A stretch of DNA of 64,000 nucleotides, taken from assembly GCA_945902745.1 (NCBI GenBank), contig CAMDNE010000006.1, positions 62,001-126,000 on the forward strand, written 5' to 3'. Under the pieces are notes generated by a model. The model saw only the letters and a program-made list of their open reading frames with translations. It was not told where the DNA came from and ran no database searches. Of the stretch, positions 19,145 through 35,569 are shown in pieces. This DNA comes from Chitinophaga pinensis. GTDB taxonomy: Bacteria; Bacteroidota; Bacteroidia; Flavobacteriales_D; Crocinitomicaceae. A program made the position numbers and the translations under genes. Within the stretch, counting starts at the first letter, position 1. Every line of letters begins with the position of its first letter.

Positions 19145-20683
19145 TTATTCTTTAATAAACTTCACTGTTTGTCCTCCGGATGTTATAACGAAATAAACAC
19201 CTGAAGCAAAATTTGTTAAATCAATTAATTGTTCTTTGTCAACTTTTGTATTCAAAATTTCAATCCCGTTAATTGTACAAATACTAATTTCGGTTGATTC
19301 TGTCGTTGAAATTGTCAAATTATAAGTTACAGGATTTGGGTAAAGCATTATGTCTGTGTTCTCAGTATTTATAGAGGTTAATCCTACACCGTCACCATTG
19401 TATCTCACAACAGCGAAATCATTATAAGATCCGTTTAAACTAGAACCAGCTACTAAAATCTGTCCATCGTTTTGAATAGTTACTGCATATCCTGTTTCAG
19501 TGGATAAACCAACTTGAGTGGCAACTATCCCGTTAGAATTAAAACTATTGTCTAAGTTGCCATCAGTATTGTAGCGTAATATGGTAAAAGCATCAGAGCT
19601 GCCATTGAAGCTATAACCTGCAGTAACTATTCTTCCATCTGTTTGAATAGCAATAGAATATGCCATTCCAGAACTTCCACCAATAGATGTTATAACAATT
19701 CCATCTGAATCAAAGCTATTGTCTAAGCTACCATTGGGATTGTATCGTATTAATGCATAAGAATAATTGGTGCCAGCTAGAGTAGATCCTGCTACTACAA
19801 TTTTTCCATCACTTTGTATAGCGACAGCATACCCTTTATCTTCTTCACTACCCCCAGTTATTGGTGTAACAACTTTCCCATCTGCGTCAAAACTAGTATC
19901 TAAACTTCCATCGGAATTATAACGTACAACAGCAAAATTATAATCGGAGCCACTAGTTAAACTGTTTCCTGCAACTACAATTTTACCATCACTTTGCAAG
20001 GCAATTGAATATCCCATGTCAACTGAAGAACCAATTTGGGTTGTTACCATTCCATCAGTATCAAAACTAGTGTCCAAACTGCCATCTGTGTTATAACGTA
20101 CAACAGCAAAATCATTAGCACCGCCATTAAAACTATATCCCGCTGCAATAATTTTTCCATCTGGTTGTATCGCTATTGAATAGGCAATATCAATACTGCC
20201 CCAGATATCTGTCATTACTAATCCATCAGTATCAAAACTATTGTCTAAGGTGCCATCTGAATTATATCGGACCAAAGCAAAATTATAATCGGAGCCACCT
20301 ACAAAAGTAAATCCAGCTACTACAATTTTTCCATCACTTTGGATTGCAACCGAATATGCCTCATCATTCTTGTCTCCATTAATATCAGTAATTAATTTAC
20401 CATCGGTGTCAAAACTATTATCCAAGCTGCCATCTGTGTTATAACGTACTACAGCAAAATCAGTTTGCGCACCATCGGAACTGTGTCCCACAACAATAAT
20501 TTTCCCGTCACTTTGCAAGGCAACAGACCTAGCTTCATCATTAAACGCTTCAACAGATGTAATATTAATTCCACTTGTACCAAATGTAAGATCCAAAGAT
20601 CCAGCTTGACCAAAAGAAGTCGTTGATGTTAAAAAACAGACAGTGGATAAAAGAGTTGTTCCTAAAAGAGTAATTTTTTTCAT
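19145..20683 (-). CDS. Secreted delta-60 repeat protein with T9SS sorting domain
   Basis: A 512-residue protein with a signal peptide (residues 1-26) and seven consecutive delta-60 repeats of about 57 residues (pattern SLDxSFDxDGxVxT..AYSIAIQSDGKIVVAG..FAVVRYNxDG), which probably fold as a beta-propeller. The last 70 residues are a type A T9SS C-terminal domain (LYPNPV ... GVYFVITSGGQTVKFIKE). The product should cross the outer membrane by T9SS and be attached or released. A LytTR-like direct repeat lies upstream at 20745-20776 and a -7-like box (CATCTTTG on the minus strand) at 20707-20714. It is the last of four similar transcription units. Confidence 0.88.
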   Translation of the reverse strand: MKKITLLGTTLLSTVCFLTSTTSFGQAGSLDLTFGTSGINITSVEAFNDEARSVALQSDGKIIVVGHSSDGAQTDFAVVRYNTDGSLDNSFDTDGKLITDINGDKNDEAYSVAIQSDGKIVVAGFTFVGGSDYNFALVRYNSDGTLDNSFDTDGLVMTDIWGSIDIAYSIAIQPDGKIIAAGYSFNGGANDFAVVRYNTDGSLDTSFDTDGMVTTQIGSSVDMGYSIALQSDGKIVVAGNSLTSGSDYNFAVVRYNSDGSLDTSFDADGKVVTPITGGSEEDKGYAVAIQSDGKIVVAGSTLAGTNYSYALIRYNPNGSLDNSFDSDGIVITSIGGSSGMAYSIAIQTDGRIVTAGYSFNGSSDAFTILRYNTDGNLDNSFNSNGIVATQVGLSTETGYAVTIQNDGQILVAGSSLNGSYNDFAVVRYNGDGVGLTSINTENTDIMLYPNPVTYNLTISTTESTEISICTINGIEILNTKVDKEQLIDLTNFASGVYFVITSGGQTVKFIKE

Positions 20684-20744
20684 GTGAATTTGTTTTAAAT
20701 TTTTTACAAAGATGAAACAATAACATTATTATCAAGCGTGACAC

Positions 20745-20776
20745 TTTGTGAACAGCCTACTTGAATTTGTAAACAA
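20745..20776 (-). promoter_or_regulatory. LytTR-like operator, site A (delta-60 gene)
   Basis: Two direct repeats read on the plus strand as TTTGTGAACAG (20745-20755) and TTTGTAAACAA (20766-20776), with starts exactly 21 bp apart. The pair ends 30 bp before a -7-like box at 20707-20714 (CATCTTTG on the minus strand). LytTR regulators bind two direct repeats about two helical turns apart just upstream of the core promoter. The LytTR gene is at 31.9 kb. Assignment is inference. Confidence 0.6.
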
Positions 20777-20780
20777 CAAA

Positions 20781-20813
20781 AAAGCCTGCTTCTTTGAATA
20801 AGAACAGGCTTTT
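20781..20813 (-). terminator. Terminator of the 464-residue secreted protein gene
   Basis: On the minus strand, AAAGCCTG pairs with CAGGCTTT (inner TTCTT/AAGAA pairing extends the stem), followed by TTTTTTG. The T-run abuts LytTR-like site A. Confidence 0.8.
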
Positions 20814-20830
20814 ATTATGTAAAAAAGGAA

Positions 20831-22225
20831 TTATAGTTTGTATTTCATGGCAGCATTGCAGTCTACAGGGACAATTACAGAAGTATTCCCATAGGAGTGC
20901 GATTTACCATATTCAGCACCGTCGTAATCTTGTTTTATCGACACTTCTTCCCATTGACATTTTCCAGTTGTAGTTTTCAAAACAGCCACCGCTCTGATTG
21001 ATCTACCAGTAATAAGTCCTGTAAAACTATTTCGGATTGTATACCATTCAGTCCCTGTAATATAAACGTAAACAACTTCTTGCGCCCATTTACCTGCTGC
21101 ATATTCTTTTATCGCAGCTGTTGCTTCTGCGTTGAGTTTTGCATCTTTTAGACCAGGACTAGGCATAGGTTTTAGTGCTGCTTCTAACGCATTATCCAAT
21201 TCACAATTATTTATTACAGCTGTTTGGAGCATACCTACCGTTTTTTCTGTATTCTTTACCAATTCATTCGCTTTTTCTTGAGTCTTACTCATAATCATAT
21301 ATTTGATTATTGGTTTTCCTGATTGATCCGATGGCGATTGAAATTTAAATCCTGAGCAATCAAGTTTTATGTAATAACTAGAACTTGTTGACAAAAACCA
21401 TGATCCATCCTCAAGAAAAGTCATAGTTCTATCGTCAAAACACGTTAGTTTATTCATGTTGTTTCCACTAAAAACCATCACTTTGTTTACCGATCCATCT
21501 TCAATTCCTTTCGCTATTCGCGGACTGTTGATATATGCAACATCAAATTTCCCTTCCGCATAATGAATTTTCAATGTCTTTTCAGACACAATAAATTCCA
21601 ACTGAACAGCTTGAGCGTATTTAGTCTCTCCAGTGTAAGATGAGTTTTCCAATATTTCAACAGGTTCAGATAAATAATATAAACCTGATATCCCATATTT
21701 ATCTGAATAATTACCTGCTGGAACTGGTAATGTATTTGCTTTCATTTTTTCCAAATTACCTTTTTTCTTTGCGTCGGCAAGGATAGATTCAATTTTCTCA
21801 AAAGCGCTTGCATAGTTAGCTTGATCACTATCTGAATTTAATGTTTTAGCCAATTTTTTATCGATGTGACCAATTACAGTAACTTTGTAGGCGTTATCTA
21901 CATTGTCAAACAAGACAATTTTCTCACCTTTTTCAATAATGAATCCTTTTTTCTCTTTTTCATCAAAATACATGGTACCTTGAGTACTTTCATTGACAAC
22001 ACCTAGGCTGATTCCAACGATTTCTTTTTTACAATTTAAACTTGCAGTAGTTAAAGTTCCTATTTGCCCATCAATCTTTACATCTACTTTTTTTGTCATG
22101 TCTGTAAGTGGGTTGGCATTGTAGCAGCCAACAGTAAGAGCTTTGTTTAGGCCAAATTCGTAGGTTTGTGAAAGAAGGCTAGTTGCAGAAAAAATTGTAA
22201 GGCCTAATGTGAAAAGTTTATTCAT
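20831..22225 (-). CDS. Secreted protein of unknown function (464 residues)
   Basis: The start is set at the ATG giving MNKLFTLGLTIFSATSLLSQ, a good signal peptide; a longer frame begins only with TTG and would overlap the promoter box at 22253-22260. I recognise no domain. The mature protein is mixed alpha/beta with a central helical part rich in Lys/Glu and ends in VDCNAAMKYKL. It lacks the T9SS C-terminal domain of its neighbours, so it is probably periplasmic or an outer-membrane-associated partner. Its promoter region carries the same LytTR-like direct repeat (22291-22322) as the three T9SS cargo genes around it, suggesting co-regulation. Confidence 0.75.
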   Translation of the reverse strand: MNKLFTLGLTIFSATSLLSQTYEFGLNKALTVGCYNANPLTDMTKKVDVKIDGQIGTLTTASLNCKKEIVGISLGVVNESTQGTMYFDEKEKKGFIIEKGEKIVLFDNVDNAYKVTVIGHIDKKLAKTLNSDSDQANYASAFEKIESILADAKKKGNLEKMKANTLPVPAGNYSDKYGISGLYYLSEPVEILENSSYTGETKYAQAVQLEFIVSEKTLKIHYAEGKFDVAYINSPRIAKGIEDGSVNKVMVFSGNNMNKLTCFDDRTMTFLEDGSWFLSTSSSYYIKLDCSGFKFQSPSDQSGKPIIKYMIMSKTQEKANELVKNTEKTVGMLQTAVINNCELDNALEAALKPMPSPGLKDAKLNAEATAAIKEYAAGKWAQEVVYVYITGTEWYTIRNSFTGLITGRSIRAVAVLKTTTGKCQWEEVSIKQDYDGAEYGKSHSYGNTSVIVPVDCNAAMKYKL

Positions 22226-22290
22226 AAAATGTGTGTTTTGGTTATTTTTCTTCAAATGAACGAATATTATCTATAGATGAGCAGGGCTAG

Positions 22291-22322
22291 TTTGTAAACA
22301 GCGTATCTGACTTTGTAAACAA
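22291..22322 (-). promoter_or_regulatory. LytTR-like operator, site B (464-residue secreted protein gene)
   Basis: Direct repeats TTTGTAAACAG (22291-22301) and TTTGTAAACAA (22312-22322), period 21 bp. The pair ends 30 bp before TTCATTTG (minus strand, 22253-22260), which fits the -7 box with one mismatch. This is the cleanest of the four sites. Confidence 0.62.
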
Positions 22323-22326
22323 CAAA

Positions 22327-22369
22327 AAAGCCACTTTCCCTTCGACAAGCTCAGGGACCGTGGCTTTTT
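22327..22369 (-). terminator. Terminator of the BspA-like gene with repeat in its loop
   Basis: GCCAC and GTGGC form the stem, with a TTTTTTG run on the minus strand abutting LytTR-like site B. The loop contains copy 2 of the dispersed 19-bp repeat, itself able to pair at its ends. Confidence 0.75.
22338..22356. repeat. Dispersed 19-bp repeat, copy 2
   Basis: CCCTTCGACAAGCTCAGGG; copy 1 is at 3903-3921 with two mismatches. It is nested in the loop of the terminator of the BspA-like gene. Confidence 0.6.
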
Positions 22370-22392
22370 GATAAATAAAAATAAATGTGCTT

Positions 22393-23970
22393 TTATTCTT
22401 TAATAAACTTTACCGTTTCACCTTCAGAAGTATGGATGAAGTACATACCTTGAGCGAAAGTCGAAACATCTATATTCTGTTTACCATTCACGCTATTTTT
22501 GAACAACTCTCTCCCATTGTTATCTAAAATAACGAATGATATTTCGATTTCAGATTGAATAAAAATGTTTTGAGTTGCAGGATTTGGTGATACAGTTAAA
22601 AGAGAGATATTTTCTCCTTCATTTACACTTAAGCTACAATCAGTTCCGCTTGCTGCATCGCCGTCAATTGTCCAGTTTTTAGTGTTGATGAGGTTATCTC
22701 TGGCAGAAACTGCATTAGTGCCATAGAACATCCCGTTGTTAATGGAAAAATCTATGTTGTCTGGTGTTGTTACTAGACCATTCCAACCAATCAATGTGTT
22801 CGAGTAGTTTTCACAACTCATTCCAGAGCCAGCAAACATTCCTGGTGCAATTGTTAAATCGGTCAAATCCCACGAACCTAAATTCTGATTAAATGCAGTT
22901 GCGTTTTCAAACATACCAATCATTGTAATCACGCTAGATGTATTCCAATTATTAATATCTTGATTAAATACCGTTGCACCAGAAAAAACATATTGCATTG
23001 AAGTTACAAAAGATGTATTCCAGTTGCCAATATTTCCATTAAAGTTAGTTGCACCATCGAACATGCTATACATAATAACCACATTTGAAGTATTCCAATT
23101 ACCTATATTTTGATTAAAAGAAGTTGCTATATTAAACATATACCCCATATCTGTGGCATTTACAGTATTCCAAATTCCAATTGGTTGATTAAAGGCGCTC
23201 GCATTTTGAAACATATATCCAAAATCAAATGCATTTGAGGTGTTCCAAGAACTAATATCCTGATTGAAACTTGTAGCAGATGCAAACATAGCTCTAAAAC
23301 TATTGACTGAAGAAGTATTCCAAATTCCAATTGGCTGGTTAAATAGACTTGCGCTCGTAAACATATTTGACATGCTTGTTACATTGGAAACATCCCAAGA
23401 ACTAATATTTTGATTGTATTGAGTTGCTCCTTGAAACATTCCAAGCATATCGTTTATTGATGAAACATCCCAATTTTCTACATTTGTAATATTACTAATC
23501 GAAGAGCAATCTTTAAACATTTTTTGAGCCGTCATACAATTGGATAAATTGGGTGAGGCAGTTGATGTTATTTGAAGATTAGAACAGCCATAAAAGGCTT
23601 CATCCATAGATGTCCATTGAGCCACTCCCCATGATGCAACTTGTTCAAGGAGTAATCTATCTGGGCCATTCGAAATATAAAAATGATTAAGATTGGATGG
23701 ACCTAAACCAAGTTGGACATGTCCACCTGCCGGTACACCAGAAACTGTAACAGATCCACTTGTAGATGCAGCAAAAGTTCCATTTCCACTAGTTGCAGAA
23801 ATATCGTCATACCACCAATAATATAGATCCCCACCGGATGCAACTTCAACATTGAAAGTGATGCTTGTTTGTGCAGCTGGCAATTGCCACCAAGTTAAGA
23901 ATTCACCTCCACCGGCAAACAATGATGATGAAAATAGAATTGATAAATAAAGAAGTAAGTGTTTTTTCAT
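22393..23970 (-). CDS. BspA-like (DUF285) repeat surface protein with T9SS sorting domain
   Basis: A 525-residue secreted protein: signal peptide (1-19), a short N-terminal region, then about ten 25-26-residue DUF285 repeats (residues about 130-420; pattern MFxxATSFNQxIxxWNTSNVTxM). Such repeats occur in surface proteins of Mycoplasma, Listeria and BspA-type adhesins. The last 75 residues are a type A T9SS domain (VSPNPATQ ... GMYFIHTSEGETVKFIKE). Export to the surface by T9SS is expected; an adhesive role is inference. Upstream is LytTR-like site C (24035-24066). Confidence 0.88.
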   Translation of the reverse strand: MKKHLLLYLSILFSSSLFAGGGEFLTWWQLPAAQTSITFNVEVASGGDLYYWWYDDISATSGNGTFAASTSGSVTVSGVPAGGHVQLGLGPSNLNHFYISNGPDRLLLEQVASWGVAQWTSMDEAFYGCSNLQITSTASPNLSNCMTAQKMFKDCSSISNITNVENWDVSSINDMLGMFQGATQYNQNISSWDVSNVTSMSNMFTSASLFNQPIGIWNTSSVNSFRAMFASATSFNQDISSWNTSNAFDFGYMFQNASAFNQPIGIWNTVNATDMGYMFNIATSFNQNIGNWNTSNVVIMYSMFDGATNFNGNIGNWNTSFVTSMQYVFSGATVFNQDINNWNTSSVITMIGMFENATAFNQNLGSWDLTDLTIAPGMFAGSGMSCENYSNTLIGWNGLVTTPDNIDFSINNGMFYGTNAVSARDNLINTKNWTIDGDAASGTDCSLSVNEGENISLLTVSPNPATQNIFIQSEIEISFVILDNNGRELFKNSVNGKQNIDVSTFAQGMYFIHTSEGETVKFIKE

Positions 23971-24034
23971 AAAATGTTCTATTAGTTAGTTTGGATCGAA
24001 TAAACAAACTTTTCGTTAGAAGCACTATGAAGAC

Positions 24035-24066
24035 TTTGTTAACAGCTCATTTGACTTTGTAAGCAA
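24035..24066 (-). promoter_or_regulatory. LytTR-like operator, site C (BspA-like gene)
   Basis: Direct repeats TTTGTTAACAG (24035-24045) and TTTGTAAGCAA (24056-24066), period 21 bp, each with one change from the common sequence. The expected -7 position (23997-24004) reads TTTATTCG on the minus strand, a weak match. It is the most diverged site of the set. Confidence 0.55.
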
Positions 24067-24070
24067 CAAA

Positions 24071-24102
24071 AAAGCCACTCTCAGTTTCCCGAAAGTGGCT
24101 TT
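24071..24102 (-). terminator. Terminator of the giant Ig-repeat gene
   Basis: AAAGCCACT pairs with AGTGGCTTT, with a TTTTTTG run on the minus strand directly abutting LytTR-like site C. Confidence 0.8.
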
Positions 24103-24124
24103 CAACCTATGAAAAAATTAACTG

Positions 24125-27100
24125 TTACTCTTTAATAAACTTCACTGTTTGTCCTTCGGAAGTGCGGATATAATACACACCTGTTGCGAATGAACTGACA
24201 TCGATCGTCTTCACTCCTTCAAGTGCTAGCGTCTTCACAACTGTTCCGTTCGATGCTGTGATCACAGCTGAAGTTGGATATGAAACAGAGATATTCAAAA
24301 CTCCGAATGTAGGATTTGGCTGGACCCCAAGAACAAGTGTCTTATCCTCTTCCAAACCGACAGAACTAATCTGAACACAAGAGCTAATTACAGTGCAACC
24401 ATTCAATTCGATTTCAACCGCATAACTTCCATTCGCTGTCGGCGTAAATGATTGTCCGTTTGCACCTGCGATCGGTTGGTTACCGTTGTTGCAATCTACC
24501 CATGTGTAGTTCGCTCCTGTTTGAGTAGCCGTTAAGGTAATTCCTGTTTGCGTTACGTTGGCATTCAGAATAGTTACCGTTACAGCAACCGCCAGTCGGT
24601 TCGCGCTTTCACATCCATTGATCGTCTGGGAAGCATAATATGTTCCGTTCGACAATGCTGCAGTTCCTGCCAACGGTGTTCCTCCTGTTGCGTTTGAATA
24701 CCAAGCAATTGATGTTCCTGTTGCAGAAAGATCATCCACAACTGCAGCTGAACAGAATGACTGAGTAGTGTTTCCTGTCGGAGTTGCCGGCGCATTGATG
24801 GTTACAGCTACCTCCAAGCGATCTGTGCTTTCACATCCGTTCACCGTCTGTGTTGCAAAATAAGAAGCACCATCACTCAATGCTGTCGCAGGTGTCAATG
24901 GGCTTGAACTTCCTGCACTTGCGTACCACGTCACAGTTGTACCTGTTACTGCCAGATCTGCGATCGTTGCACTGTTGCAGAATTCCTGAGTAGCTGTTCC
25001 TGTTGGAGCAGACGGTATCGCATTGATCGAAACGGTCACAGCCAACTGGTTCAAACTTGTACAACCGTTGATCGTTTGCGTAGCGTAATACGTTGAACCA
25101 TCTACAAGCGAAGTAGTCGGAGTCAAAACGTTTCCTGCACTTGCAGCGTCATACCAGGTAATGTTTGATCCACTGACAGGGATGTCTGAAACAAGTCCTG
25201 ATCCACAGAAATTCTGGTTCGCAGTAGCTGCAGGTGCCGCAGGAATGTTCATTGTCACGGCTACGGCAAAGCGGCTTGCACTTTCACATCCGCTCACCGT
25301 TTGTGAAGCATAGTACGTTCCATTTACCAACGGAGTAGTTGAATTCAAAGCAGATCCACCTGTCGCTGCTGTATACCACTGGATACCCGATCCAGTTGCT
25401 GCAAAATCAGCTACCGTCGCTGCATTACAGAATTCCTGAGCTGCAGTTCCGGTTGGAGCTGCCGGTGCATTGATCGTTACTGATACTGCTAGCCTGCTAG
25501 TACTTTCGCAACCTCCCGATGTTTGGGATGCATAGTATGTTGTCCCATTAACTAGTGCTGTTCCTATTGAAAGTGGAGACCCACCAGTCGCAGCAGTGTA
25601 CCACTGAATGTTGGAACCTGTAGTAGCAAGGTTTGCTACAGTACCACTATTACAGATAGTCTGGGAAGCAGATCCGGTCGGAGCCGATGGAATTCCAAAG
25701 GCTACCGTTACACCAAGTCTTGTTGCACTTTCGCAACTACTAATAGTTTGAGATGCATAGTAGGTTACTCCATTGACCAAAGCTGTTGATGTCAAAAGCG
25801 GTGAGCCTCCTGATGCGGTTGAATACCATTGAATATTGGTTCCCGAAACAGACAAATCACCAACGATCGCTCCACTACAAACAGTTTGTGTCGTTGAACC
25901 TGTTGGGCTCGATGTAACATTCACAGTTACTGCCACTGCTAAGCGAGTTGCACTTTGACATCCGCTAATTGTTTGGGACGCATAATACGTAGTTCCTGTT
26001 GCTAATACTGTTCCTGTTGTAAGTGCTGTTCCTCCCGTTGATGCTGCATACCACTGGATTCCTGTTCCAGTTGCAGTTAAGTTGGCAACTGTTCCTAAGT
26101 TACAGAATGTTTGAGATGCTGTTCCTGTTGGAGCCGCTGGTGTGTTGATTGTTGCTGTTACTGCAAAACGGTTTACACTTTCGCATCCTGTGATTGTTTG
26201 TGAAGCATAATAAGTCGTACCGTTTACCAATGCAGTTCCTATTGCTAATGCTGAACCTCCAGTTGAAGCAGCGTACCATTGAATTCCTGTTCCTGTTGCC
26301 ACTAAATTGGCAACTGTTCCTGAGTTACAGAATGTTTGTGCCACTATTCCTGTTGGGGCTGCTGGCGAGTTGATTGTTGCTGTTACTGCAAAGCGAGTTG
26401 CACTTTCGCATCCGCTGATGGTTTGTGAAGCGTAATAAGTCGTACCGTTTACCAATGTTGTTCCTGTCGCCAATGCTGATCCTCCAGTTGATGCTGCGTA
26501 CCATTGAATTCCTGTTCCTGTTGCTGTTAAATTGGCAACTGTTCCTGAGTTACAGAATGTTTGTGCCGCTGTTCCTGTTGGGGCTGCTGGCGCGTTGATT
26601 GTTGCAGTTACTGCAAAACGGTTTACACTTTGACAACTGCTGATCGTTTGTGAAGCGTAATAGGTTGTTCCGTTTGTCAAAGCAGTTCCGGTGCTAAGAG
26701 CTGTTCCGCCTGTTGAGGCTGCATACCATTGAATACCTGTTCCTGTTGCCGTTAGATTCGCTACAGTTGCGGAATTACAGAAGGTCTGAGCGGCTGCACC
26801 TGTTGGTGTTGCCGGAGCATTGATTGTTACTGTCACTGCAAAACGATTGGCACTTTCACATCCACTGATCGTTTGAGAAGCGTAGTATGCTGTTCCAGAT
26901 GTAAGAGTTGTTCCAGATGTAAGAGCTGTTCCTCCTGTTGATGCTGCATACCATTGAATTCCTGTTCCTGTAGCAACAAGGTTTGCAACTGTTCCTGAGT
27001 TACAGAATGTTTGAGATCCTGTTCCTGTTGGAGTCGCTGGTGCGTTTATCGTTACAGTTACAGCTAATCTGTTGGTGCTTTCGCATCCTCCTGATGTTTG

Positions 27101-30100
27101 GGATGCGTAATATGTCGTTCCATTAACTAGCGCTGTTCCTGCTGAAAGTGGAGTTCCGCCTGTTGGGGCAGCGTACCATTGAATATTTGAACCAACAGCT
27201 GTTAGATTCGCAACAGTTCCTGAATTACAGACTGTCTGCGCAGCAGATCCGGTTGGAGCAGATGGAATTCCAAATACCGCTGTCACCGCAAATCTTCCAG
27301 TACTTTCACATCCGTTCACAGTTTGTGATGCATAATAGATAATGCCATTTGATAGGAGCGTTGAAGGTGATAAAGGTGATCCACCCGATGCTGCTGCATA
27401 CCATTGAATATTCGTACCGGTAGCACTCAATGAACCAATATTAGCACCACTGCAAAAAGTCTGAGTTGCAATTCCTGACGGAACACTTGGTGTATTGATC
27501 GTTACAACCACCGCCAAACGGTTTGCACTTTGACAACCACTTACGGTTTGGGATGCATAATACGTCGTTCCGTTTGTTAACGACGTCCCTGAAGTAAGAG
27601 ACGTTCCACCGGTTGAAGTTGTATACCACTGAATCGCCGTTCCTGTTGCGGTCAAGTTAGCTACTGTTGCGGAGTTACAGAATGTTTGAGCAGCAGAGCC
27701 GGTTGGGGTTGAAGTTGAGTTGAGAGAAACTGTTACGCCAAATGATCCAGCATAAACACACTGATTCGTTGATCCTAAACTTTGTCCCGCATAATAAATC
27801 GTACCATTTGTAAGTACGGTGTTAGTTGGTAAAGGTGTTCCAAAAGACCATCCCATTGAAGATGTGTACCAATTCAATTGTGCTCCAGGAGTAATGTTTG
27901 CAACTAAATCAGCAATTGTAGCTCCAGTACAGAATGACTGTGGATTCGGTGCAGTGACATTCGTTGTGAAATTATGGAGAATTACCGTCACCGCAAGACG
28001 ATTTATACTTTCACACCCATTAATTGTTTGAGATGCATAATAGGTCGATCCATTCGTAACCGGAGTATTTGAAGCGAGGAATGTTCCTCCCGATGGATTT
28101 GCGTACCATTTAATATTTGAACCTGTCGCTGAAAGACTGTTAACGGTGATTGTATTACCGCCTGTGCAAATCTCTTGTGTTGCATTTCCTGTAGGTGCTG
28201 CAGGAGAGGTGATCGTTACTGTCACTGCTAGACGGCTGACACTTTGACAACCACTCACTGTTTGAGATGCATAATAGGTTGTTCCATTTACAAGTGCCGT
28301 TCCTACAGAAAGAGCTGTTCCCCCTGTTGGTGTTGTGTACCATAAGATCCCTATACCTGTTGCAGTTAGATTTGACACCATAGCAGAATTACAGAATGAT
28401 TGCGATGCTGACCCTATTGGAGCTGATGTTGAATTTACGGTTACTGTTACAGCAAGACGGCCAGGGCTTTCGCAACTTGTTGTCTGAGTCGCATAATAAG
28501 TTGAACCCGTAACGAGTGCTGTTCCTATTGAAAGTGGAGACCCACCAGTCGCAGCAGTGTACCATTGGATATTTGTACCATTAGCAACCAAATTACTTAC
28601 CGTTGCACTATTGCAAAAAGTTTGTGAAGTTGGGCCAGTTGGAGTATTGCATAAATTGGGCGTACAAGAATATCCGTTTACCCAATTGGAGGTGGTGCCG
28701 TTCAATCCAAAACCGGTCAAGGTACCGCTGTCAGCAGCACCTGCTGCATCGGTCAGGGTTGTAACTCCGGCATTATTTTGTGCGGGAAATCCCTGATTAA
28801 AATTGTAGTTAGCAATGAGATTGGTTGATGTTACATTAATACAGTTGTAACTATCATTCAGTTCTTGCGCGCTTAGCGCACGTCCCCAAATTTTGACCCG
28901 ATCCATGAGTCCTCCGTAATACTGAGTATTAGTATTGGCTCCAAGAGCAAAATTTGCAGGCACATAAGAAATGAAATGTGTGAACGGAGCGCCGACCGCT
29001 TGTCCGTCCAAATACAATTGGGATCCGTTGGGCATACTTTCTTGGAAAGTCAATGCCACATGGTGCCATTGGTTGTCATTCAGGGTGGCAACCGTATAGG
29101 TAGTAGCACCCACCGAACCGTTGACTGTCCAGTTGTAGGACATCAGTTGGTTGCCATTCAAAAACAAACCATAATAATTGGGTCTCACAATCAGGGCCCT
29201 GAATCCAGAACCTGCATTGGTGGTTTTGATCCATGCCTCGAAGGTGCCGGCAGAAGTGATCGAACTGTTGATGGTCGAAGCAAGGCCTACTTGGTCATTG
29301 AGACCATCAAAATTCAATCCGTTCTCACAACTGAATATATTGGCGGTTACAGCAAGTCTTGTAGTACTTTCACAACCATTAGCACCTGTTTGAGATGCAT
29401 AATAAGTTGTTCCACTGATAATCGATGTAGTTCCAGATATAGGTGTACCGCCTATTGAAGCTGTGTACCATTGAATGGTTGTTCCCGTAACGACTAGATT
29501 CGAAATTGTTGCGCTTCCACAGAAATTTTGAGTCGCTGAACCTGTAGGAGCAGCAGTAGTTGAAAGTGTGACTAAAACTTGTTTTCTCGTACTTTCACAT
29601 CCAGCAACAGTTTGTGTAGCGTAATAAAATGTATTGTGAACTAATGCGGTTAATAAAGGTAATGGAATTCCTCCCGAGGCTGCAGCATACCACTGAATAT
29701 TCGTTCCTGTCACAACGATATCTGAAAGGTTGTCACCATAACAAAGTGCTTGTGAGGCTGAACCCCCAGGAGCAGGTGATGAAATCACGGTAACAACAAC
29801 TGCTAATCTAACTGAACTTGGGCAGCCGTTTAACGTCTGAGAAGCATAATAAGTATTTCCATTTACAAGTGCGGTTGTACCTACCAATGATGTTCCACCT
29901 GTAGCAACGGAATACCATTGAACACTTGTTCCGGTTGCTACAAGATTCGCAACAGTTCCGCTATTGCAGAAGGATTGTGTTGTCGAACCTGTGGGCGGTG
30001 CTGTTTCATTCACAACTAAAGTTGCGGCATTTGATGTTATCGTTACTGAATTGCAAAGATTACCAATCACTACCGTATAGTTTGCAATATTCACACTCGT

Positions 30101-31771
30101 AACATTAGCAAGAGTTAAAATATATGAATTGGCTCCTACAATGTCAACACCATCTTTTTTCCATTGATAAGTCGTCGCTGTTCCACTTGCTGCAACGCTA
30201 TAAGTTGCTGAATTACCAACACACACTGTCTGTGTTGATGGTTGGGTGATAATTACTTGGTCAACTCCACATTCGTAGAATTTAGTTAACAAAGCATCCT
30301 GAGCTCCTATTAAAGAAACTCCCACAACCCCAGTTTGAGGATCCAGATCAGTTATGTTATCGTCAAACATTGACCCAACAATAATTTCCTTACTACTGTT
30401 TACATGCACGGCGCGTGGATATTCAACACCGGTTGTTAGGGCCCCGCCGAATGTATGCACATTTTGATAAGCGAGATTATTGTTCAACTTCAACAGGTAT
30501 TGATCATAACCTGCAGATACCACATTCTGAACACCTGCACCCGGGTCAAAATCAATTGTCCCTATCCAGTTACCAACAACAAAAATATCGTTGCCATTGA
30601 TCGAAATATCAAAGGCATTACTCTTTTCGCCTGCAGTTATTGAGGCACATGGGGTATTATTTTGAACTTTTATGGCATTTAAATAATTTAAGTTTCCATC
30701 CAATTTCCATACAAAAGCTGCTGTGGTTGAATTGAAACAGGCATTTAGTGTTGCGGTTCCAGTACCTGGGTCAAAATCCATACTCCCAACCATTGTTCCC
30801 ACTCCATAGATGTTTCCATTGACATCTGTCGCTATATTTTCTATATTGAAACTAGACAATAAGGTATTTGTAGATGCAGCAATATTCTCATAAACACCAG
30901 CACTATTCCATTTAAGAATAATCATTTCCTTGCCGCTATAAATATTTCCACTATACCAAGGCATATTGACTGAAACAAAATAATTTCCGGTATTGTCAAT
31001 CTCGAAATCAGATACAATAGCATCCTCAGAATAATTTGTTGGCAATCCTTTTATAAGTGGTGTCAATTGGGGCGGTGTGGTAGTTGGCCACATATAGCTT
31101 TGATAAGCTCCTGCTGCCGAGTATTTAAGTAAGATAACTCCATATCTAACACCAGTATTCGAAACGCTAAGCCCAACATTTGCTGCACCATAGTCCAAAT
31201 CGATCGTTCCAGAATTATTAAAGAAACTACATGCAAAAACAGGGTCACCATTGGATTGAACCTCAACTCGTGGAATAAATGGAATATTCTGTAAACTACC
31301 TCCCCATAAGAAATTTCCATCCTTGTCAAGACACCCAAGAATTCCCCAACCTCCGTAAACATTAGTTACTCCCGGGCCCGGATCAATATCACCATTTCCT
31401 GTTGCTTGTCTTCCACTGAAAAAAACTCTACCATCATTTCCTATTGCCAAACCAGATATTTGCATATCTGCATTGCTTGCAGTATTGACCGGGAAATTTT
31501 TTGTCCATATTACATTTCCAACCGGATCGAATTTTGCAATAAAAGCGTTTAATCCACCAATTTGGCTTGCATAATCGATATTAACATCGTTTGATACAGC
31601 TGCTCCATGTTTTCCACATACATAGACATTACCGGCATTATCGCTAACAACATTATAAATTAGTTCATTTGAGCTTACTGCTCCAATTCTTTTATGCCAC
31701 TGATAATTCAATTGAGCATTCGTCACCAAAGAAAGGACGAGGAAGGTTAAAAAGGCGGTTATCTTTTTCAT
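24125..31771 (-). CDS. Giant T9SS-secreted Ig-repeat protein (2548 residues)
   Basis: One open frame with a signal peptide (1-19). Residues about 20-500 form a propeller-like region with repeated DFDPG motifs (SBBP-like). An Ig-like domain follows (about 505-590). Then come three Ig_7/CHU_C-associated repeats, a LamG/concanavalin-like domain (about 812-1040), and 18 more repeats. Each repeat is about 75 residues: T(G)xAxQTFCNSGTVANL..TGxxIQWY..GGxxL..GTTYYASQT..GCES..RLAVTVTI, with two Cys per unit. The C-terminal 75 residues are a type A T9SS domain (VQPNPTFG ... VYYIRTSEGQTVKFIKE). A surface adhesin or filament is likely. The LytTR regulator gene lies directly upstream, with LytTR-like site D between. 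Confidence 0.9.
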   Translation of the reverse strand: MKKITAFLTFLVLSLVTNAQLNYQWHKRIGAVSSNELIYNVVSDNAGNVYVCGKHGAAVSNDVNIDYASQIGGLNAFIAKFDPVGNVIWTKNFPVNTASNADMQISGLAIGNDGRVFFSGRQATGNGDIDPGPGVTNVYGGWGILGCLDKDGNFLWGGSLQNIPFIPRVEVQSNGDPVFACSFFNNSGTIDLDYGAANVGLSVSNTGVRYGVILLKYSAAGAYQSYMWPTTTPPQLTPLIKGLPTNYSEDAIVSDFEIDNTGNYFVSVNMPWYSGNIYSGKEMIILKWNSAGVYENIAASTNTLLSSFNIENIATDVNGNIYGVGTMVGSMDFDPGTGTATLNACFNSTTAAFVWKLDGNLNYLNAIKVQNNTPCASITAGEKSNAFDISINGNDIFVVGNWIGTIDFDPGAGVQNVVSAGYDQYLLKLNNNLAYQNVHTFGGALTTGVEYPRAVHVNSSKEIIVGSMFDDNITDLDPQTGVVGVSLIGAQDALLTKFYECGVDQVIITQPSTQTVCVGNSATYSVAASGTATTYQWKKDGVDIVGANSYILTLANVTSVNIANYTVVIGNLCNSVTITSNAATLVVNETAPPTGSTTQSFCNSGTVANLVATGTSVQWYSVATGGTSLVGTTALVNGNTYYASQTLNGCPSSVRLAVVVTVISSPAPGGSASQALCYGDNLSDIVVTGTNIQWYAAASGGIPLPLLTALVHNTFYYATQTVAGCESTRKQVLVTLSTTAAPTGSATQNFCGSATISNLVVTGTTIQWYTASIGGTPISGTTSIISGTTYYASQTGANGCESTTRLAVTANIFSCENGLNFDGLNDQVGLASTINSSITSAGTFEAWIKTTNAGSGFRALIVRPNYYGLFLNGNQLMSYNWTVNGSVGATTYTVATLNDNQWHHVALTFQESMPNGSQLYLDGQAVGAPFTHFISYVPANFALGANTNTQYYGGLMDRVKIWGRALSAQELNDSYNCINVTSTNLIANYNFNQGFPAQNNAGVTTLTDAAGAADSGTLTGFGLNGTTSNWVNGYSCTPNLCNTPTGPTSQTFCNSATVSNLVANGTNIQWYTAATGGSPLSIGTALVTGSTYYATQTTSCESPGRLAVTVTVNSTSAPIGSASQSFCNSAMVSNLTATGIGILWYTTPTGGTALSVGTALVNGTTYYASQTVSGCQSVSRLAVTVTITSPAAPTGNATQEICTGGNTITVNSLSATGSNIKWYANPSGGTFLASNTPVTNGSTYYASQTINGCESINRLAVTVILHNFTTNVTAPNPQSFCTGATIADLVANITPGAQLNWYTSSMGWSFGTPLPTNTVLTNGTIYYAGQSLGSTNQCVYAGSFGVTVSLNSTSTPTGSAAQTFCNSATVANLTATGTAIQWYTTSTGGTSLTSGTSLTNGTTYYASQTVSGCQSANRLAVVVTINTPSVPSGIATQTFCSGANIGSLSATGTNIQWYAAASGGSPLSPSTLLSNGIIYYASQTVNGCESTGRFAVTAVFGIPSAPTGSAAQTVCNSGTVANLTAVGSNIQWYAAPTGGTPLSAGTALVNGTTYYASQTSGGCESTNRLAVTVTINAPATPTGTGSQTFCNSGTVANLVATGTGIQWYAASTGGTALTSGTTLTSGTAYYASQTISGCESANRFAVTVTINAPATPTGAAAQTFCNSATVANLTATGTGIQWYAASTGGTALSTGTALTNGTTYYASQTISSCQSVNRFAVTATINAPAAPTGTAAQTFCNSGTVANLTATGTGIQWYAASTGGSALATGTTLVNGTTYYASQTISGCESATRFAVTATINSPAAPTGIVAQTFCNSGTVANLVATGTGIQWYAASTGGSALAIGTALVNGTTYYASQTITGCESVNRFAVTATINTPAAPTGTASQTFCNLGTVANLTATGTGIQWYAASTGGTALTTGTVLATGTTYYASQTISGCQSATRLAVAVTVNVTSSPTGSTTQTVCSGAIVGDLSVSGTNIQWYSTASGGSPLLTSTALVNGVTYYASQTISSCESATRLGVTVAFGIPSAPTGSASQTICNSGTVANLATTGSNIQWYTAATGGSPLSIGTALVNGTTYYASQTSGGCESTSRLAVSVTINAPAAPTGTAAQEFCNAATVADFAATGSGIQWYTAATGGSALNSTTPLVNGTYYASQTVSGCESASRFAVAVTMNIPAAPAATANQNFCGSGLVSDIPVSGSNITWYDAASAGNVLTPTTSLVDGSTYYATQTINGCTSLNQLAVTVSINAIPSAPTGTATQEFCNSATIADLAVTGTTVTWYASAGSSSPLTPATALSDGASYFATQTVNGCESTDRLEVAVTINAPATPTGNTTQSFCSAAVVDDLSATGTSIAWYSNATGGTPLAGTAALSNGTYYASQTINGCESANRLAVAVTVTILNANVTQTGITLTATQTGANYTWVDCNNGNQPIAGANGQSFTPTANGSYAVEIELNGCTVISSCVQISSVGLEEDKTLVLGVQPNPTFGVLNISVSYPTSAVITASNGTVVKTLALEGVKTIDVSSFATGVYYIRTSEGQTVKFIKE
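24560..28640 (-). repeat. Tandem array of 18 coding repeats (about 225 bp each)
   Basis: The Ig-like units after the LamG domain of the giant protein. Central units (about 25.9-27.0 kb) are nearly identical at both protein and DNA level, whereas outer units are diverged, which suggests expansion from the middle by unequal recombination. Three more units lie at about 29335-30000. Confidence 0.9.
28650..29335 (-). other. LamG-coding segment of higher GC inside the Ig array
   Basis: This stretch codes the LamG/concanavalin-like domain (GLNFDGLNDQVGL ... GLMDRVKIWGRALSAQEL) inserted between Ig repeats 3 and 4. By eye it is richer in G and C (many CCG, GGT, GCC codons) than the flanking repeats and the rest of the window. 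The related LamG domain at 39.3 kb is AT-rich like its surroundings. Confidence 0.6.
29335..30000 (-). repeat. Three Ig-like coding repeats before the LamG domain
   Basis: Units 1-3 of the 21-unit family in the giant protein, separated from the other 18 by the LamG segment. They are more diverged from the consensus than the central units. Confidence 0.85.
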
Positions 31772-31826
31772 AGATTTTTAAATATTGTGTAAATATATTT
31801 AACTAATTACCTTTTAAAAAAACCAA

Positions 31827-31858
31827 TTTGTAAACAACACGTTTGACTTTGTAAACAG
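31827..31858 (-). promoter_or_regulatory. LytTR-like operator, site D (giant gene)
   Basis: Direct repeats TTTGTAAACAA (31827-31837) and TTTGTAAACAG (31848-31858), period 21 bp. The pair ends 29 bp before TATATTTA (minus strand, 31790-31797), close to the TAnnTTTG -7 box. The site lies directly downstream of the LytTR gene itself. Confidence 0.62.
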
Positions 31859-31865
31859 CAAAAAA

Positions 31866-31891
31866 GCCGTTCTCAACGAGCTGAAAACGGC
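31866..31891 (-). terminator. Terminator of the LytTR two-component operon
   Basis: GCCGTT and AACGGC form the stem on the minus strand, followed by a TTTTTTG run that abuts LytTR-like site D. It separates the regulator operon from the giant gene. Confidence 0.8.
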
Positions 31892-31914: not shown

Positions 31915-32676
31915 TTAACTCAAATAATTCTGAACATCTTGTTTGCGTTCACGGGAAACCGGAATTACTTGTCCTGATTTAAGTTGTAGATTTCCACCTT
32001 CAGATTTAAAATAGGATGTGACATGGTCCATATTGACAAGGAATGAGCGATGTGATCTGAGAAATTTTGGAGTAGATTCGAGAGCGTTCTCAAAGTATTT
32101 CAGATTTTTTGAAACGATTTTGGGTTTTTGGTTAGTACTTACAATACGAACATATGATCCTTCAGCCTCAAAGTATTCGATATCATCCAATGAAAGGTAT
32201 TCATATCCTCCTTGAAATGGAATACACAAAACATCCTTTCTATCTTCCTGTAAATTTTCGGAAAGTGCTTTTAGCCTTACTTCATTATCGCGATTCTTTT
32301 TATCTTCTTTCAATTTTTCAACAGCTTCTACCAACTGCTCTTCTTGAATTGGTTTGAGGATATAATCAATGGCTGATAATCGAAATGCTTTTAATGCATG
32401 GGCATTATAGGCTGTTGTAAATACAACTTTTCCTTTGATGTTTTTACCTATGAGCGATTCTGCAAGTTGCAGACCAGATTTTCCCGGCATTTCAATATCC
32501 AAAAAAATAGCATCTGGCTGATGTTTTTCAATTATTCGAAGTCCATCTTCGGCATTTTCAGCTTCACTTACGACCTGTACCTCTGGTGCAAGTTCCAACA
32601 ACATGAGTCGTAATAATTTTCTTGCTTGTGCAGAATCATCAATTACAACGGCTTTTATTTTATTTGATTCAGACAT
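31915..32676 (-). CDS. LytTR-family response regulator
   Basis: The start is set at the ATG giving MSESNKIKAVVIDD, overlapping the kinase stop by 8 bp; a longer frame reads into the kinase gene. The 253-residue protein has a receiver domain (acidic D13/D14, phospho-acceptor D60, Thr and Lys of TTAY and LKPI) and a C-terminal LytTR DNA-binding domain (about 150-253; DDIEYFEAEGSYVRI, FLRSHRSFLVN, IPVSRERK). LytTR domains bind pairs of short direct repeats about two helical turns apart. Four such repeats with a 21-bp period occur in the four promoters downstream, which makes these genes the predicted regulon. Confidence 0.93.
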   Translation of the reverse strand: MSESNKIKAVVIDDSAQARKLLRLMLLELAPEVQVVSEAENAEDGLRIIEKHQPDAIFLDIEMPGKSGLQLAESLIGKNIKGKVVFTTAYNAHALKAFRLSAIDYILKPIQEEQLVEAVEKLKEDKKNRDNEVRLKALSENLQEDRKDVLCIPFQGGYEYLSLDDIEYFEAEGSYVRIVSTNQKPKIVSKNLKYFENALESTPKFLRSHRSFLVNMDHVTSYFKSEGGNLQLKSGQVIPVSRERKQDVQNYLS

Positions 32677-35569
32677 GAATGCGAATGTAAACAATAGTGC
32701 CTTCTGGTTCACCATTTAGGTTAAAATTATCAACTATTTCAACACCTACAATTCCTTCTTTTTCATGATTAAGTAAATCTAGTCGCCTTTCCATCGCATG
32801 TGAAGCGAAAGATTGATGCTCTGCTTGTGTTTTCTTGTTTATTTCGTCTGCAGCTTTTCTGCCAATTCCATTGTCTGTTATTGTGATTAATAATAATTCT
32901 TCAGACTCCAAATAGTTTATTGAAATGTTCAATTTCTTTTCACCCGATTTGTGTCTCAATCCATGTTTGAATGCATTTTCAACATAAGGTTGAATGAGTA
33001 GTGCAGGAATATTAATTGCCGATTCATCAACATTTTCATCTATTACAATCTCATAACTAAAATCCATTTGGAGCAACATAGCTTCTAAATCAATGTAAAG
33101 TTTTAATGTTTCCAATTCTTTCTCCAAAGTTACGACTGGCAGCGAACTCATTTCTAGTATTTTTCGCACAAGACTGGAGAAATCACTCAAATATTTTGCT
33201 GCATTTTTCTTGTCATTTTCATAGATAAAACCTTTTATTGAATTCAAAACATTGAACAAAAAATGTGGATTCATTTGAGCTTTCAGTGCATTTTGTTGGG
33301 TTAAACGAAGTTCATTTTCAAGCCGTAGATTTTTAAGTTCAGCCTGTTGTTTCTTTTGAAGGATTGATTCACGCCGTTTGAAGATTGCATATGCACTAAG
33401 TCCGACAGAAACTGCAAGTAAAAGATAGAACCACCAGCGCTGCCAAAAAGGAGGCAAAACCCTCAATTCGAATTTTAAACTATTAATGGAGGACATTCCA
33501 TTGTGATCGATCATTTTTAATTCTATCGTAATATTTCCTGTTGGCAACTGAGGAATAATAATTTTCCCTGCCGAACCCGGAACTTTGATCCAATTTTCGT
33601 TATAACCGATTATACGGTAGGCAAAGTCAAAATTTCCATTTGAGAAAAACGAAATTCCATCCGCGACGATCGTTAATTCATCATCATAACGCATTTCTTT
33701 TATGGCTTTGAAACCTTTTGGATTATTATTCAATCTGAATTCACGAAAAATAATTTTAGCACTTCCTTTTTTCGTTCTAAACAAATTGAGGGGAATGCGC
33801 TGTATTCCTTTTCCTGTGGCTGCCCAACAATATTTATCAGTAAATGTTAACGCTCTGACATTGTTTGAACTCAAGCCTTCATAAAATCCAAGTTGAAATG
33901 AACTGCCATTATCAATGTCTAACCCCATAATTCCTTTATTGGTTGCCAAATAGATTTTACCTTTGTGAAAATCCAACTCTACGGCCTTAATAGAGCTATC
34001 AAGTTTTTTAAACTCTGTAATTTTTCGGTTTTTATCGATGGAATAAATTAAACCTTCAAAGCTTAAAATATAGACGATTTGCTTTTTCTGATCAACCGTA
34101 ATTGATATTATTTGTTGATTCTTAAGAAGAATACTTTTGTTCTTCCATTTGCCGTTTTCAAATTGAAGTTCATAAAGACCTCCGTTTGCTGCGACGAATT
34201 TACTCCCAGAAAATGGTGAACTTTCAATATCTCGGCACCAATCCTCCACTATTAAGTTGGTTCCATCAAGTGGATCGGTTATCGAGTTTACACAAAATAA
34301 TCCCTGCGAAGACAATAGGAAATAGTCATTTTTTATGTGCAACATAGATTTAATTGATCGAGCTTGGCTATTCACCTCATCAATACGTCCATCCTTCAAT
34401 CGGAAAATTTGATTCATTTTATTGAAGTAGATACATTGATCTAGCGCGTCAAAATAAAACATACCAAGATCAGAATTTGGCTTGTGCTCGTAATTCTTTA
34501 ATCGATCTCCTGCAGCGCTCAATTCACGAATAATTCCAGTAGTTCCCGCAAAGTAAATAAATTCACCATCCGTCGCGATATGACTAAAAGGATCGTATGT
34601 GAATGCGCCAGATTCAACATTCCACACCCGAACATCAAATTGAGGAATACGAAATATCCCATTGTGTAAGGTGCTAAACCAATAATTTCCTTCAGCATCT
34701 TTCAAGCAATCTGAAAATGCAATGTCGGAATACAACAATTCAACCTTTCCATTGAATTTATTGAAGTGCACTAATCCTGAATAGGTATTGATCCAAATAT
34801 TCCCTTGATTAGTTTCAACGACTGATGTGAGCTTTCTCCCTTTTAAGATTTCAATTAATTTAGGGTTTTTGTATTCTGACCAGCCATTTTTAGTTTTTTG
34901 AAAAACTGCAGCACCAAGAATGTCAAACAACCATGGATTTGAAACCGAACGAGAGATGATCAGAGGAGTTTCCTTATACTTCTTATCAATAAAATGTGAA
35001 TTCACATTCCCATCCTTCCATTCAATTATCTTTTCATAATTGTGGTAGTAAATTCTCCCTTCAGAATCAGAGCGAATATTGTTTGTGAAAACCTTTGATC
35101 CATTGGAAGAATGAAGAGACGAATTGACTAATTTCCATTTCAATGATTTTTCATTCAGTTCAAATACTCCTTCGCTGCTAGAAATCCAAATGGTTCCATT
35201 TCCGACACTCGCAATACCGTTTACAGGAAAATTCCAATTATCGATAGTTCGCAGGATACCACCTTCAATGTAAAATATTTGCTTGTTAAAATTATACCCA
35301 TAAATTCTTCCCCCAGGAGATTGACAGAGTCCTGTGGCAGACTGAGAATTAAGTTCGGAAGAAGAAAAATGTTCGTATGTCACTCCATTAAAGCGATAAA
35401 CACCTACATCACAGCCAATCCAGATATATCCTTGTTTGTCTTGAAGAATGCAATATATTTCATTGGAAGGGGCACCATTTTCAATGCTATATGAAAAATA
35501 AGCAGGATCTTGTGCAACAATTCTATTGCAAAAAAATATTAAAAATATTAAAAGTAAAAAGTTCTTCAC
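32669..35569 (-). CDS. LytS-type histidine kinase with Reg_prop beta-propeller sensor
   Basis: A 966-residue kinase: signal peptide (1-19), a large periplasmic region of two-component-regulator propeller repeats (for example ILQDKQGYIWIGCDVGVYRF, and later WAATGKGIQRIPLN), a Y_Y_Y domain (about 640-705), one TM (about 712-732), a coiled coil, then a His_kinase domain with NPHFLFN at residues 767-773 (His769) and a HATPase with PYVENAFKHGL and ITDNGIGR. This layout resembles the sensor half of hybrid two-component systems of gut Bacteroides that sense glycans, but without a fused regulator. It is coupled to the LytTR gene by an 8-bp overlap. The ligand is unknown. Confidence 0.92.
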   Translation of the reverse strand: MKNFLLLIFLIFFCNRIVAQDPAYFSYSIENGAPSNEIYCILQDKQGYIWIGCDVGVYRFNGVTYEHFSSSELNSQSATGLCQSPGGRIYGYNFNKQIFYIEGGILRTIDNWNFPVNGIASVGNGTIWISSSEGVFELNEKSLKWKLVNSSLHSSNGSKVFTNNIRSDSEGRIYYHNYEKIIEWKDGNVNSHFIDKKYKETPLIISRSVSNPWLFDILGAAVFQKTKNGWSEYKNPKLIEILKGRKLTSVVETNQGNIWINTYSGLVHFNKFNGKVELLYSDIAFSDCLKDAEGNYWFSTLHNGIFRIPQFDVRVWNVESGAFTYDPFSHIATDGEFIYFAGTTGIIRELSAAGDRLKNYEHKPNSDLGMFYFDALDQCIYFNKMNQIFRLKDGRIDEVNSQARSIKSMLHIKNDYFLLSSQGLFCVNSITDPLDGTNLIVEDWCRDIESSPFSGSKFVAANGGLYELQFENGKWKNKSILLKNQQIISITVDQKKQIVYILSFEGLIYSIDKNRKITEFKKLDSSIKAVELDFHKGKIYLATNKGIMGLDIDNGSSFQLGFYEGLSSNNVRALTFTDKYCWAATGKGIQRIPLNLFRTKKGSAKIIFREFRLNNNPKGFKAIKEMRYDDELTIVADGISFFSNGNFDFAYRIIGYNENWIKVPGSAGKIIIPQLPTGNITIELKMIDHNGMSSINSLKFELRVLPPFWQRWWFYLLLAVSVGLSAYAIFKRRESILQKKQQAELKNLRLENELRLTQQNALKAQMNPHFLFNVLNSIKGFIYENDKKNAAKYLSDFSSLVRKILEMSSLPVVTLEKELETLKLYIDLEAMLLQMDFSYEIVIDENVDESAINIPALLIQPYVENAFKHGLRHKSGEKKLNISINYLESEELLLITITDNGIGRKAADEINKKTQAEHQSFASHAMERRLDLLNHEKEGIVGVEIVDNFNLNGEPEGTIVYIRIHV

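Follow-up and report, generated by a model that had tools for sequence, protein, structure and literature searches.

Paired direct repeats at a 21-bp period mark candidate LytTR target promoters of secreted proteins in a Crocinitomicaceae genome

Promoters of published LytTR operons carry paired direct repeats at a set distance from the core promoter, and here we compare with them a 64,000-nucleotide stretch (the window) of contig CAMDNE010000006.1, from a 3,461,279-base genome of the family Crocinitomicaceae, in which four gaps downstream of a LytTR response regulator gene each hold a paired repeat (sites A to D). In excerpts of the published accounts, LytTR operon promoters have 9-bp repeats that are mostly 12 bp apart and mostly 10 bp upstream of the -35 element; in several of them the distance from the repeat end to the -10 element is 10 + 6 + 17 = 33 bp, and in Bacteroides thetaiotaomicron the distance from the repeat to the -7 box is 11 + 4 + 19 = 34 bp (PMC6193735). 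Another account, also cited here from excerpts, gives two repeats of 9 to 11 bp separated by 11 to 13 bp (PMC4847170).

The HdrR/BrsR and related operons of the LytTR regulatory systems (LRS) resemble our locus in having two 9-bp direct repeats 12 bp apart and about 33 bp before the -10 element, and the HdrR/BrsR core ACCACTTAC is similar to GYYGTTYAC here (PMC6193735). An LRS combines a LytTR regulator with a membrane inhibitor protein, whereas our locus has a receiver-LytTR regulator and a propeller kinase before genes for secreted surface proteins (PMC6193735). The LRS-like operons of B. thetaiotaomicron and Bacteroides ovatus, which belong to the same phylum, likewise have direct repeats 5' of a TATCTTTG -7 box, but they differ in their 11-bp repeats with 11-bp spacing (period 22), their LytTR protein with membrane segments, their NfeD/DUF2154 partner and their presumed autoregulation (PMC6193735). 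YpdA/YpdB of Escherichia coli is, like the pair described here, a LytS/LytTR kinase-regulator pair, whose sole target, yhjX, has a directly repeated GGCATTTCAT in its promoter (PMC4847170). AgrA of Staphylococcus aureus likewise binds as a LytTR dimer to a pair of direct repeats immediately before the promoter, and its contact motif FFRCHNS, which has a DNA-contact role, is of the FhRhHRS type found here; its promoters differ in their 18- and 20-nucleotide spacers and in their unit sequence (PMC4227749).

The window encodes a receiver domain and a histidine kinase instead of the membrane inhibitor of an LRS, and its kinase and LytTR regulator are separate proteins in which no AraC domain was matched. 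The hybrid two-component systems (HTCS) of Bacteroidota unite propeller sensor, kinase, receiver and AraC domain in one protein. YpdA/YpdB differs from our pair in responding to extracellular pyruvate and in serving a single target through a proteobacterial promoter, and AgrA belongs to a peptide quorum-sensing system. Among open-licence PubMed Central papers, searched by title and the start of the abstract, we found none describing this circuit or box in Bacteroidota. The locus appears to use the known direct-repeat LytTR mechanism in a circuit and with a box that are new as far as found, and to give a lead on the LytTR recognition code.

The original prediction placed two unit copies, with starts exactly 21 bp apart, in each of the four gaps, and this is what we found. 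Five of the eight unit copies are exact TTTGTAAACA, and single-base variants are present as TTTGTGAACA (A1), TTTGTTAACA (C1) and TTTGTAAGCA (C2). Searching the window with the pattern TTTGTNARCA-N11-TTTGTNARCA returned sites A to D and nothing else at 0 mismatches, and six matches at up to 3 mismatches (shuffled sequences, 1.06 ± 1.07). The genome search proposed with the prediction gave the same answer: exact matches in 3.46 Mb were confined to A to D, and allowing 1 mismatch added one further place, while at up to 3 mismatches the 62 pair matches did not exceed the 77 of a reversed control pattern. In this genome-wide search the pair was absent from every other LytTR gene of the genome. The letters of the unit had been given correctly but on the wrong strand; the functional unit is the reverse complement, TGTTTACAAAGTC, because the target genes lie on the minus strand. 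When 20 sites were aligned on the gene strand, the first unit read G-Y-Y-G-T-T-Y-A-C-A-A-A-n-T-C-A and the second was similar, with conservation falling in the spacer and rising again at columns 63, 66 and 67, the place of the -7 box. Read in this way, GYYGTTYACAAAnTCA fits the LytTR layout of a 9-bp repeat, a 12-bp spacer and a 9-bp repeat.

We then scanned 16 loci (252,109 bases) with a 15-column weight matrix built from 38 units and run as pairs at periods 10 to 42. Period 21 accounted for 30 sites, and periods 14, 31 and 41 for one each (3 in all), many of the scanned sites having trained the matrix, which itself holds neither the period nor the -7 box. Period 21, read as a 9-bp unit with a 12-bp spacer, falls within the published ranges of 9 to 11 bp and 11 to 13 bp. 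In 25 of them the best TAnnTTTG within 70 positions, ties counted, was located 28 to 30 bp downstream, compared with 3.3 ± 1.7 for shuffled downstream DNA (maximum of 10 in 2000 runs); with near-copies removed, the count was 23 of 27. The five exceptions were site C, its orthologue in genome G137 and three sites of genus g11 that lie 5' of the kinase gene. From the 9-mer to the -7 box the distance is 31 to 33 bp here, and the spacing, orientation and -7 box distance match those of published LytTR promoters. Within the window, the repeats stand at a fixed distance from the core promoter in 3 of 4 sites: a -7 box 29 to 30 bp after the pair, as originally proposed, is the best match in A, B and D, but in C a better match lies at 22 bp. 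The distances of 24, 28, 27 and 19 bp from box to ATG were recounted as 23, 27, 26 and 18 nucleotides, one less by counting convention.

Next, we looked at how the sites and the regulator are distributed among 240 Crocinitomicaceae genomes. The regulator was matched at E ≤ 1e-60 in 12 genomes, ten at 57 to 100% identity and two at 42 to 43%. In addition, G082 has its orthologue split into two open reading frames (ORFs; 66 and 58% identity), and G103 has a C-terminal fragment with one in-frame stop at a contig end. Counting the ten orthologues, the split copy and the fragment as carriers, 11 of 12 have paired sites. A 32-bp gene-strand pattern with up to 1 mismatch was found in 9 of 11 carriers (the ten orthologues plus G082) versus 3 of the 229 other genomes (Fisher test, P value = 1.9e-12, a value that flatters the association because the pattern was partly shaped on the same genomes). 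With the window-only pattern at 1 mismatch, five of the nine other genomes with a full-length orthologue (G137, G123, G124, G059 and G032) match at 18 bp to 4.1 kb from the regulator, with a site 18 bp (G124) and 26 bp (G123) from the regulator match. The G103 site matches at 2 mismatches, and G080 has three weaker sites by position weight matrix (PWM). Across ten aligned regulator orthologues, the FhRhHRS motif is retained.

Signal was separated from noise by position and by the longer gene-strand pattern. At 1 mismatch the window-only pattern hits 45 of 200 family genomes; the reversed control hits many genomes too, and most of these raw matches are chance. At up to 2 mismatches the gene-strand pattern matches 32 of 240 genomes (reversed control, 10 matches). 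Nineteen genomes outside the 11 carriers match at 2 mismatches only; of the 18 examined (G115 was left out), 12 have the match in ORFs and 6 have it between genes, the latter comprising the fragment carrier G103, three cases that have a -7 box at 29 to 30 bp and look real (G008, G184 and G178) and two that do not (G079 and G001). The matches of G169 and G151 at up to 1 mismatch were rejected as sites since they fall inside reading frames. Also rejected as regulator sites were eight pairs in G047 (seven exact, one with 1 mismatch), which belong to a repeated block: eight near-identical blocks of about 90 bp, each with a pair of TTTGTAAACA units, are interspersed with small genes close to contig ends (L102 = C20, L103 = C5). 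This array looks like a gene-cassette array, integron-like by eye, and the two stretches contain no regulator-like ORF.

The genes of the locus run on the minus strand in the order kinase, LytTR regulator, then targets D, C, B and A, each target behind a paired repeat (Table 1). Both domains of the predicted LytTR regulator were recovered, but its start was corrected from an alignment of relatives, probably to MSESNKIK, giving 253 aa (31915-32676). The adjacent kinase is LytS-type (His_kinase PF06580, 6.7e-21), and a signal sequence and one membrane segment can be read by eye from its translation. In the window no unit pair that might serve autoregulation lies 5' of the kinase gene. All four targets had been proposed to be secreted; a type IX secretion system (T9SS) sorting tail bears this out for A, C and D (in D the Pfam match, at 25.8 bits, is just under its cut-off and TIGR04183 is above), whereas B shows a signal-like N terminus by eye, with no Pfam or NCBIfam match and no recognised T9SS tail. 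Target C also matches the PARCEL-repeat models TIGR02167 (above cut-off) and NF045896 (below cut-off). The protein B family occurs in 12 of the 240 genomes and also adjoins other LytTR genes in G004 and G026; an AlphaFold model of B from 11 sequences (mean predicted local distance difference test score, 85.3; predicted template modelling score, 0.61) had no match in the PDB at E ≤ 0.001. Terminator-like hairpins lie directly 5' of sites C and D in a scan that overall gave 7 sites, fewer than its shuffles (11.3), and inverted repeats seen by eye 5' of A and B are absent from the scan list. A 717-aa protein that combines L-type lectin and Laminin_G_3 domains (39210-41363) is encoded 3.6 kb from the kinase, and its gene has no paired site before it.

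Table 1. Coordinates of the regulator, kinase, target genes, paired sites and promoter features within the window
Feature	Position	Strand	Evidence
LytTR response regulator (receiver and LytTR domains)	31915..32715	-	Pfam Response_reg 2.9e-22, LytTR 6.7e-19, both above cut-off
LytS-type histidine kinase, 966 aa, beta-propeller sensor (Reg_prop, Y_Y_Y, His_kinase)	32669..35569	-	Pfam
Target D: 2548-aa Ig_7-repeat protein, Laminin_G_3, T9SS tail	24125..31771	-	Pfam, NCBIfam
Target C: DUF285/PARCEL-repeat surface protein, T9SS tail	22393..23970	-	Pfam, NCBIfam
Target B: 464-aa protein, N-terminal signal-like sequence by eye	20831..22225	-	
Target A: delta-60-repeat (DUF5122) beta-propeller, T9SS tail	19145..20683	-	Pfam, NCBIfam
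Site A: paired 10-bp units, period 21; 5' of delta-60/DUF5122 gene	20745..20775	-	PWM pair score 44.6
Site B: paired 10-bp units, period 21; 5' of 464-residue protein gene	22291..22321	-	PWM pair score 42.5
Site C: paired 10-bp units, period 21; 5' of DUF285 (BspA/PARCEL-like) gene	24035..24065	-	PWM pair score 41.7
Site D: paired 10-bp units, period 21; gap between LytTR gene and giant Ig-repeat gene	31827..31857	-	PWM pair score 44.7
Candidate -7 box of A: TAnnTTTG, 1 mismatch, 30 bp past pair	20707..20714	-	
Candidate -7 box of B: TAnnTTTG, 1 mismatch, 30 bp past pair	22253..22260	-	
Candidate -7 box of C: 2 mismatches at 30 bp; better 1-mismatch match at 22 bp	23997..24004	-	
Candidate -7 box of D: TAnnTTTG, 1 mismatch, 29 bp past pair	31790..31797	-	
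Terminator-like hairpin of kinase-regulator operon, directly 5' of site D	31866..31891	-	Hairpin scan
Terminator-like hairpin directly 5' of site C	24070..24103	-	Hairpin scan

Target genes turn over between species while the regulator and the sites persist. T9SS tails (Pfam or NCBIfam) were found in 6 of 10 further downstream proteins of a first set, the four misses being two proteins cut by contig ends, one broken-looking ORF and one member of the protein B family, and in 9 of 10 of a second set (8 from the family and 2 from the loci outside it described below). A second locus on the regulator's contig in G059, 0.9 Mb away, has three paired sites before secreted-protein genes, the first of these genes having no T9SS tail, and G124 has two paired sites before secreted-protein genes on another contig. 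G125 and G082 each have a site whose -7 box has 1 mismatch and behind which no gene can be recognised; the corresponding sites beside lysS (L094 13168 and L100 10779) have their -7 box at 30 bp. Such sites with no gene behind them, accompanied in G082 by the split regulator, likely reflect decay after loss of a target.

We also applied the matrix to 80 further loci (the named loci) around LytTR genes of 33 to 50% identity to the regulator, none exceeding 50% among the matches listed. Between genes it found 8 pairs at period 21, in 7 loci, and none at the ten other periods tried in the range 16 to 26; in the coding DNA of these loci there was none at period 21 and one each at five other periods. 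The best -7 box, ties counted, lay at 28 to 30 bp in 7 of the 8 pairs. In L140, from a metagenome-assembled genome titled Chitinophaga pinensis, the order is a large ORF in the kinase's place, the LytTR gene, the site and a gene for a T9SS-tailed protein. When repeats in the gaps flanking the named LytTR genes were counted without reference to any motif, there was again a peak at 21 (34 pairs); L157, L171 and L205 contributed 19 of these through simple arrays, which presumably also explain the peaks at 14 and 28. With arrays set aside by reading of the list, there were 15 pairs in 14 loci at period 21 versus at most 3 at other periods.

A second unit class, TTTCACTAACC, also occurs among these loci: over periods 12 to 40 it gave 5 pairs, spread over 4 loci, and every one of them has period 21. 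We compared the boxes with the residue after the histidine in F-x-R-x-H-?-S for the 78 of 80 named loci that have a LytTR ORF (L168 and L198 have none). TTYACAAA pairs occurred in 5 of 18 loci with arginine, 0 of 22 with lysine and 2 of 38 others, and TTTCACTAACC pairs, under a looser rule, occurred in 0 of 18, 5 of 22 and 0 of 38, respectively (arginine versus lysine among the ten loci with a box, Fisher P value = 0.008). In the TTTCACTAACC loci L143, L145, L150, L163 and L215 (the last under the looser rule only), HKS replaces HRS. The residue in question aligns with N201 of AgrA, a reported DNA contact in the excerpted account (PMC4227749). The link between residue and box is a lead and not a result, because the unit was read off three of the five loci and the two classes may be clades.

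The four pairs are very probably binding sites of the adjacent LytTR regulator, through which it would activate the four target promoters. The sites, their geometry, the co-occurrence with the regulator and the type of target all support computationally the originally proposed control of the four genes by the kinase and regulator. Several observations weigh against this reading. The -7 box is weak at the expected place in site C and its G137 orthologue, and three sites of genus g11 (in G059, G080 and G124) are oriented away from the kinase and lack a -7 box at 28 to 30 bp. T9SS tails are missing from product B, L099:11842, L135:7123 and L096:878. G111 has the regulator and yet no site on its 4.3-kb contig, G082 keeps a site though its regulator ORF is split, and G144 has two sites with no orthologue found. 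G008, G184 and G178, which lack an orthologue of at least 57% identity, have intergenic sites at 2 mismatches, and the G184 site is located just 3' of a different LytTR gene (34% identity), which itself comes after a kinase-like ORF. At least three other LytTR regulators of the window's own genome, at E ≤ 1e-35 (13 of 32 candidates scored), might bind the pairs.

Some of these cases carry further detail. The g11 inverted pairs (L095 15063, L099 7042 and L093 4711) are about 95 bp from the kinase's own candidate -7 box and are a possible autoregulatory site; L093 also has a second propeller-kinase/LytTR pair, which runs divergently from the inverted site. The two G144 sites are intergenic, before a DUF285 gene and a Laminin_G_3 gene whose products are both T9SS-tailed; lysS is nearby, as it also is in the window, the contig starts within a protein B relative (38% over 61 residues), and the sites, which we kept as real, are the same locus on a cut contig. 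The sites of G008, G184 and G178 (L117, L126 and L128) have a -7 box at 29 to 30 bp with 0 or 1 mismatch, and the 3-kb loci of G008 and G178 contain no regulator-like ORF. The L128 site precedes a gene with a T9SS-like end by eye. The original prediction asked whether the motif also occurs at many unrelated promoters or in genomes lacking this regulator: in its own genome the pair stands before four promoters only, but three orthologue-free genomes have convincing sites, and the box therefore belongs to a class of LytTR regulators beyond this orthologue.

Binding of the pairs by a different regulator, whether a paralogous LytTR protein or another dimer, with their place beside the operon incidental, is quite unlikely, though the sharing of the box class makes it slightly less so. 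LytTR regulators are abundant in family genomes (at least 13 at E ≤ 1e-35 in some), the box class also stands at other LytTR genes (in G184 and the named loci), the G144 sites come with no orthologue seen, and the remote G059 sites are near another kinase/LytTR pair (L135). Set against this are the sites in nearly all carriers, fragment and split copy included, the close spacing of site and regulator match in G124 and G123, and the own genome, where no further pair lies at any other LytTR gene. In the remaining 228 genomes, matches with up to 1 mismatch occur in 3, two of them inside ORFs, and of 18 non-carriers with 2-mismatch matches only, 17 were examined and 3 look real. Position beside the regulator and exclusivity in the own genome still favour the adjacent regulator. 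Duplication of a single promoter-terminator cassette, which would make the four gaps similar by descent alone and leave the pair without a binding role, is extremely improbable as the explanation. A stretch next to the first unit, GGCTTTTTTG, is indeed common to the four window gaps, and a promoter cassette may well have been copied during target-gene exchange, but all 30 sites keep the 21-bp period although their spacers differ, the window targets show no relationship beyond T9SS tails in 3 of 4, the units are conserved across genera where the flanks are not, and boxes of the same kind lie beside LytTR genes of other Bacteroidota. Geometry alone leaves the sign of regulation unfixed, and the inverted sites 5' of the kinase in three g11 genomes could repress; even so, the pairs are unlikely to be operators for repression, as they lie upstream of the promoter and not over it, at the distance given in excerpts for the activator HdrR (tested) and the Bacteroides operons (presumed) (PMC6193735).

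If the adjacent regulator is the activator, the periplasmic beta-propeller of the LytS-type kinase would sense an extracellular signal and the kinase would phosphorylate the LytTR regulator, two LytTR domains of which would bind both units on the same face of the DNA (GYYGTTYAC, 12-bp spacer, unit). The bound dimer would stand just upstream of RNA polymerase at the TAnnTTTG promoter and activate it, and each target gene would be its own transcription unit with a secreted, mostly T9SS-sorted surface protein as its product. We infer the binding, the phosphorelay, the separate transcription units, the activation and the signal from sequence. More tentatively, kinase/LytTR pairs of Bacteroidota may act across the phylum to switch exchangeable surface proteins, using a rigid 21-bp/30-bp promoter geometry and a code in which the arginine of F-x-R-x-H-R-S specifies TTYACAAA and a lysine there specifies TTTCACTAACC.

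To our knowledge, how surface and T9SS-secreted proteins are regulated has been poorly mapped in Bacteroidota, a group with numerous LytTR regulators, few of which have known targets. With a fixed, searchable signature, two units 21 bp apart with a -7 box 28 to 30 bp on, the targets of many such regulators can be predicted from sequence, and LytTR specificity becomes directly testable through the two unit classes and their differing contact residue.

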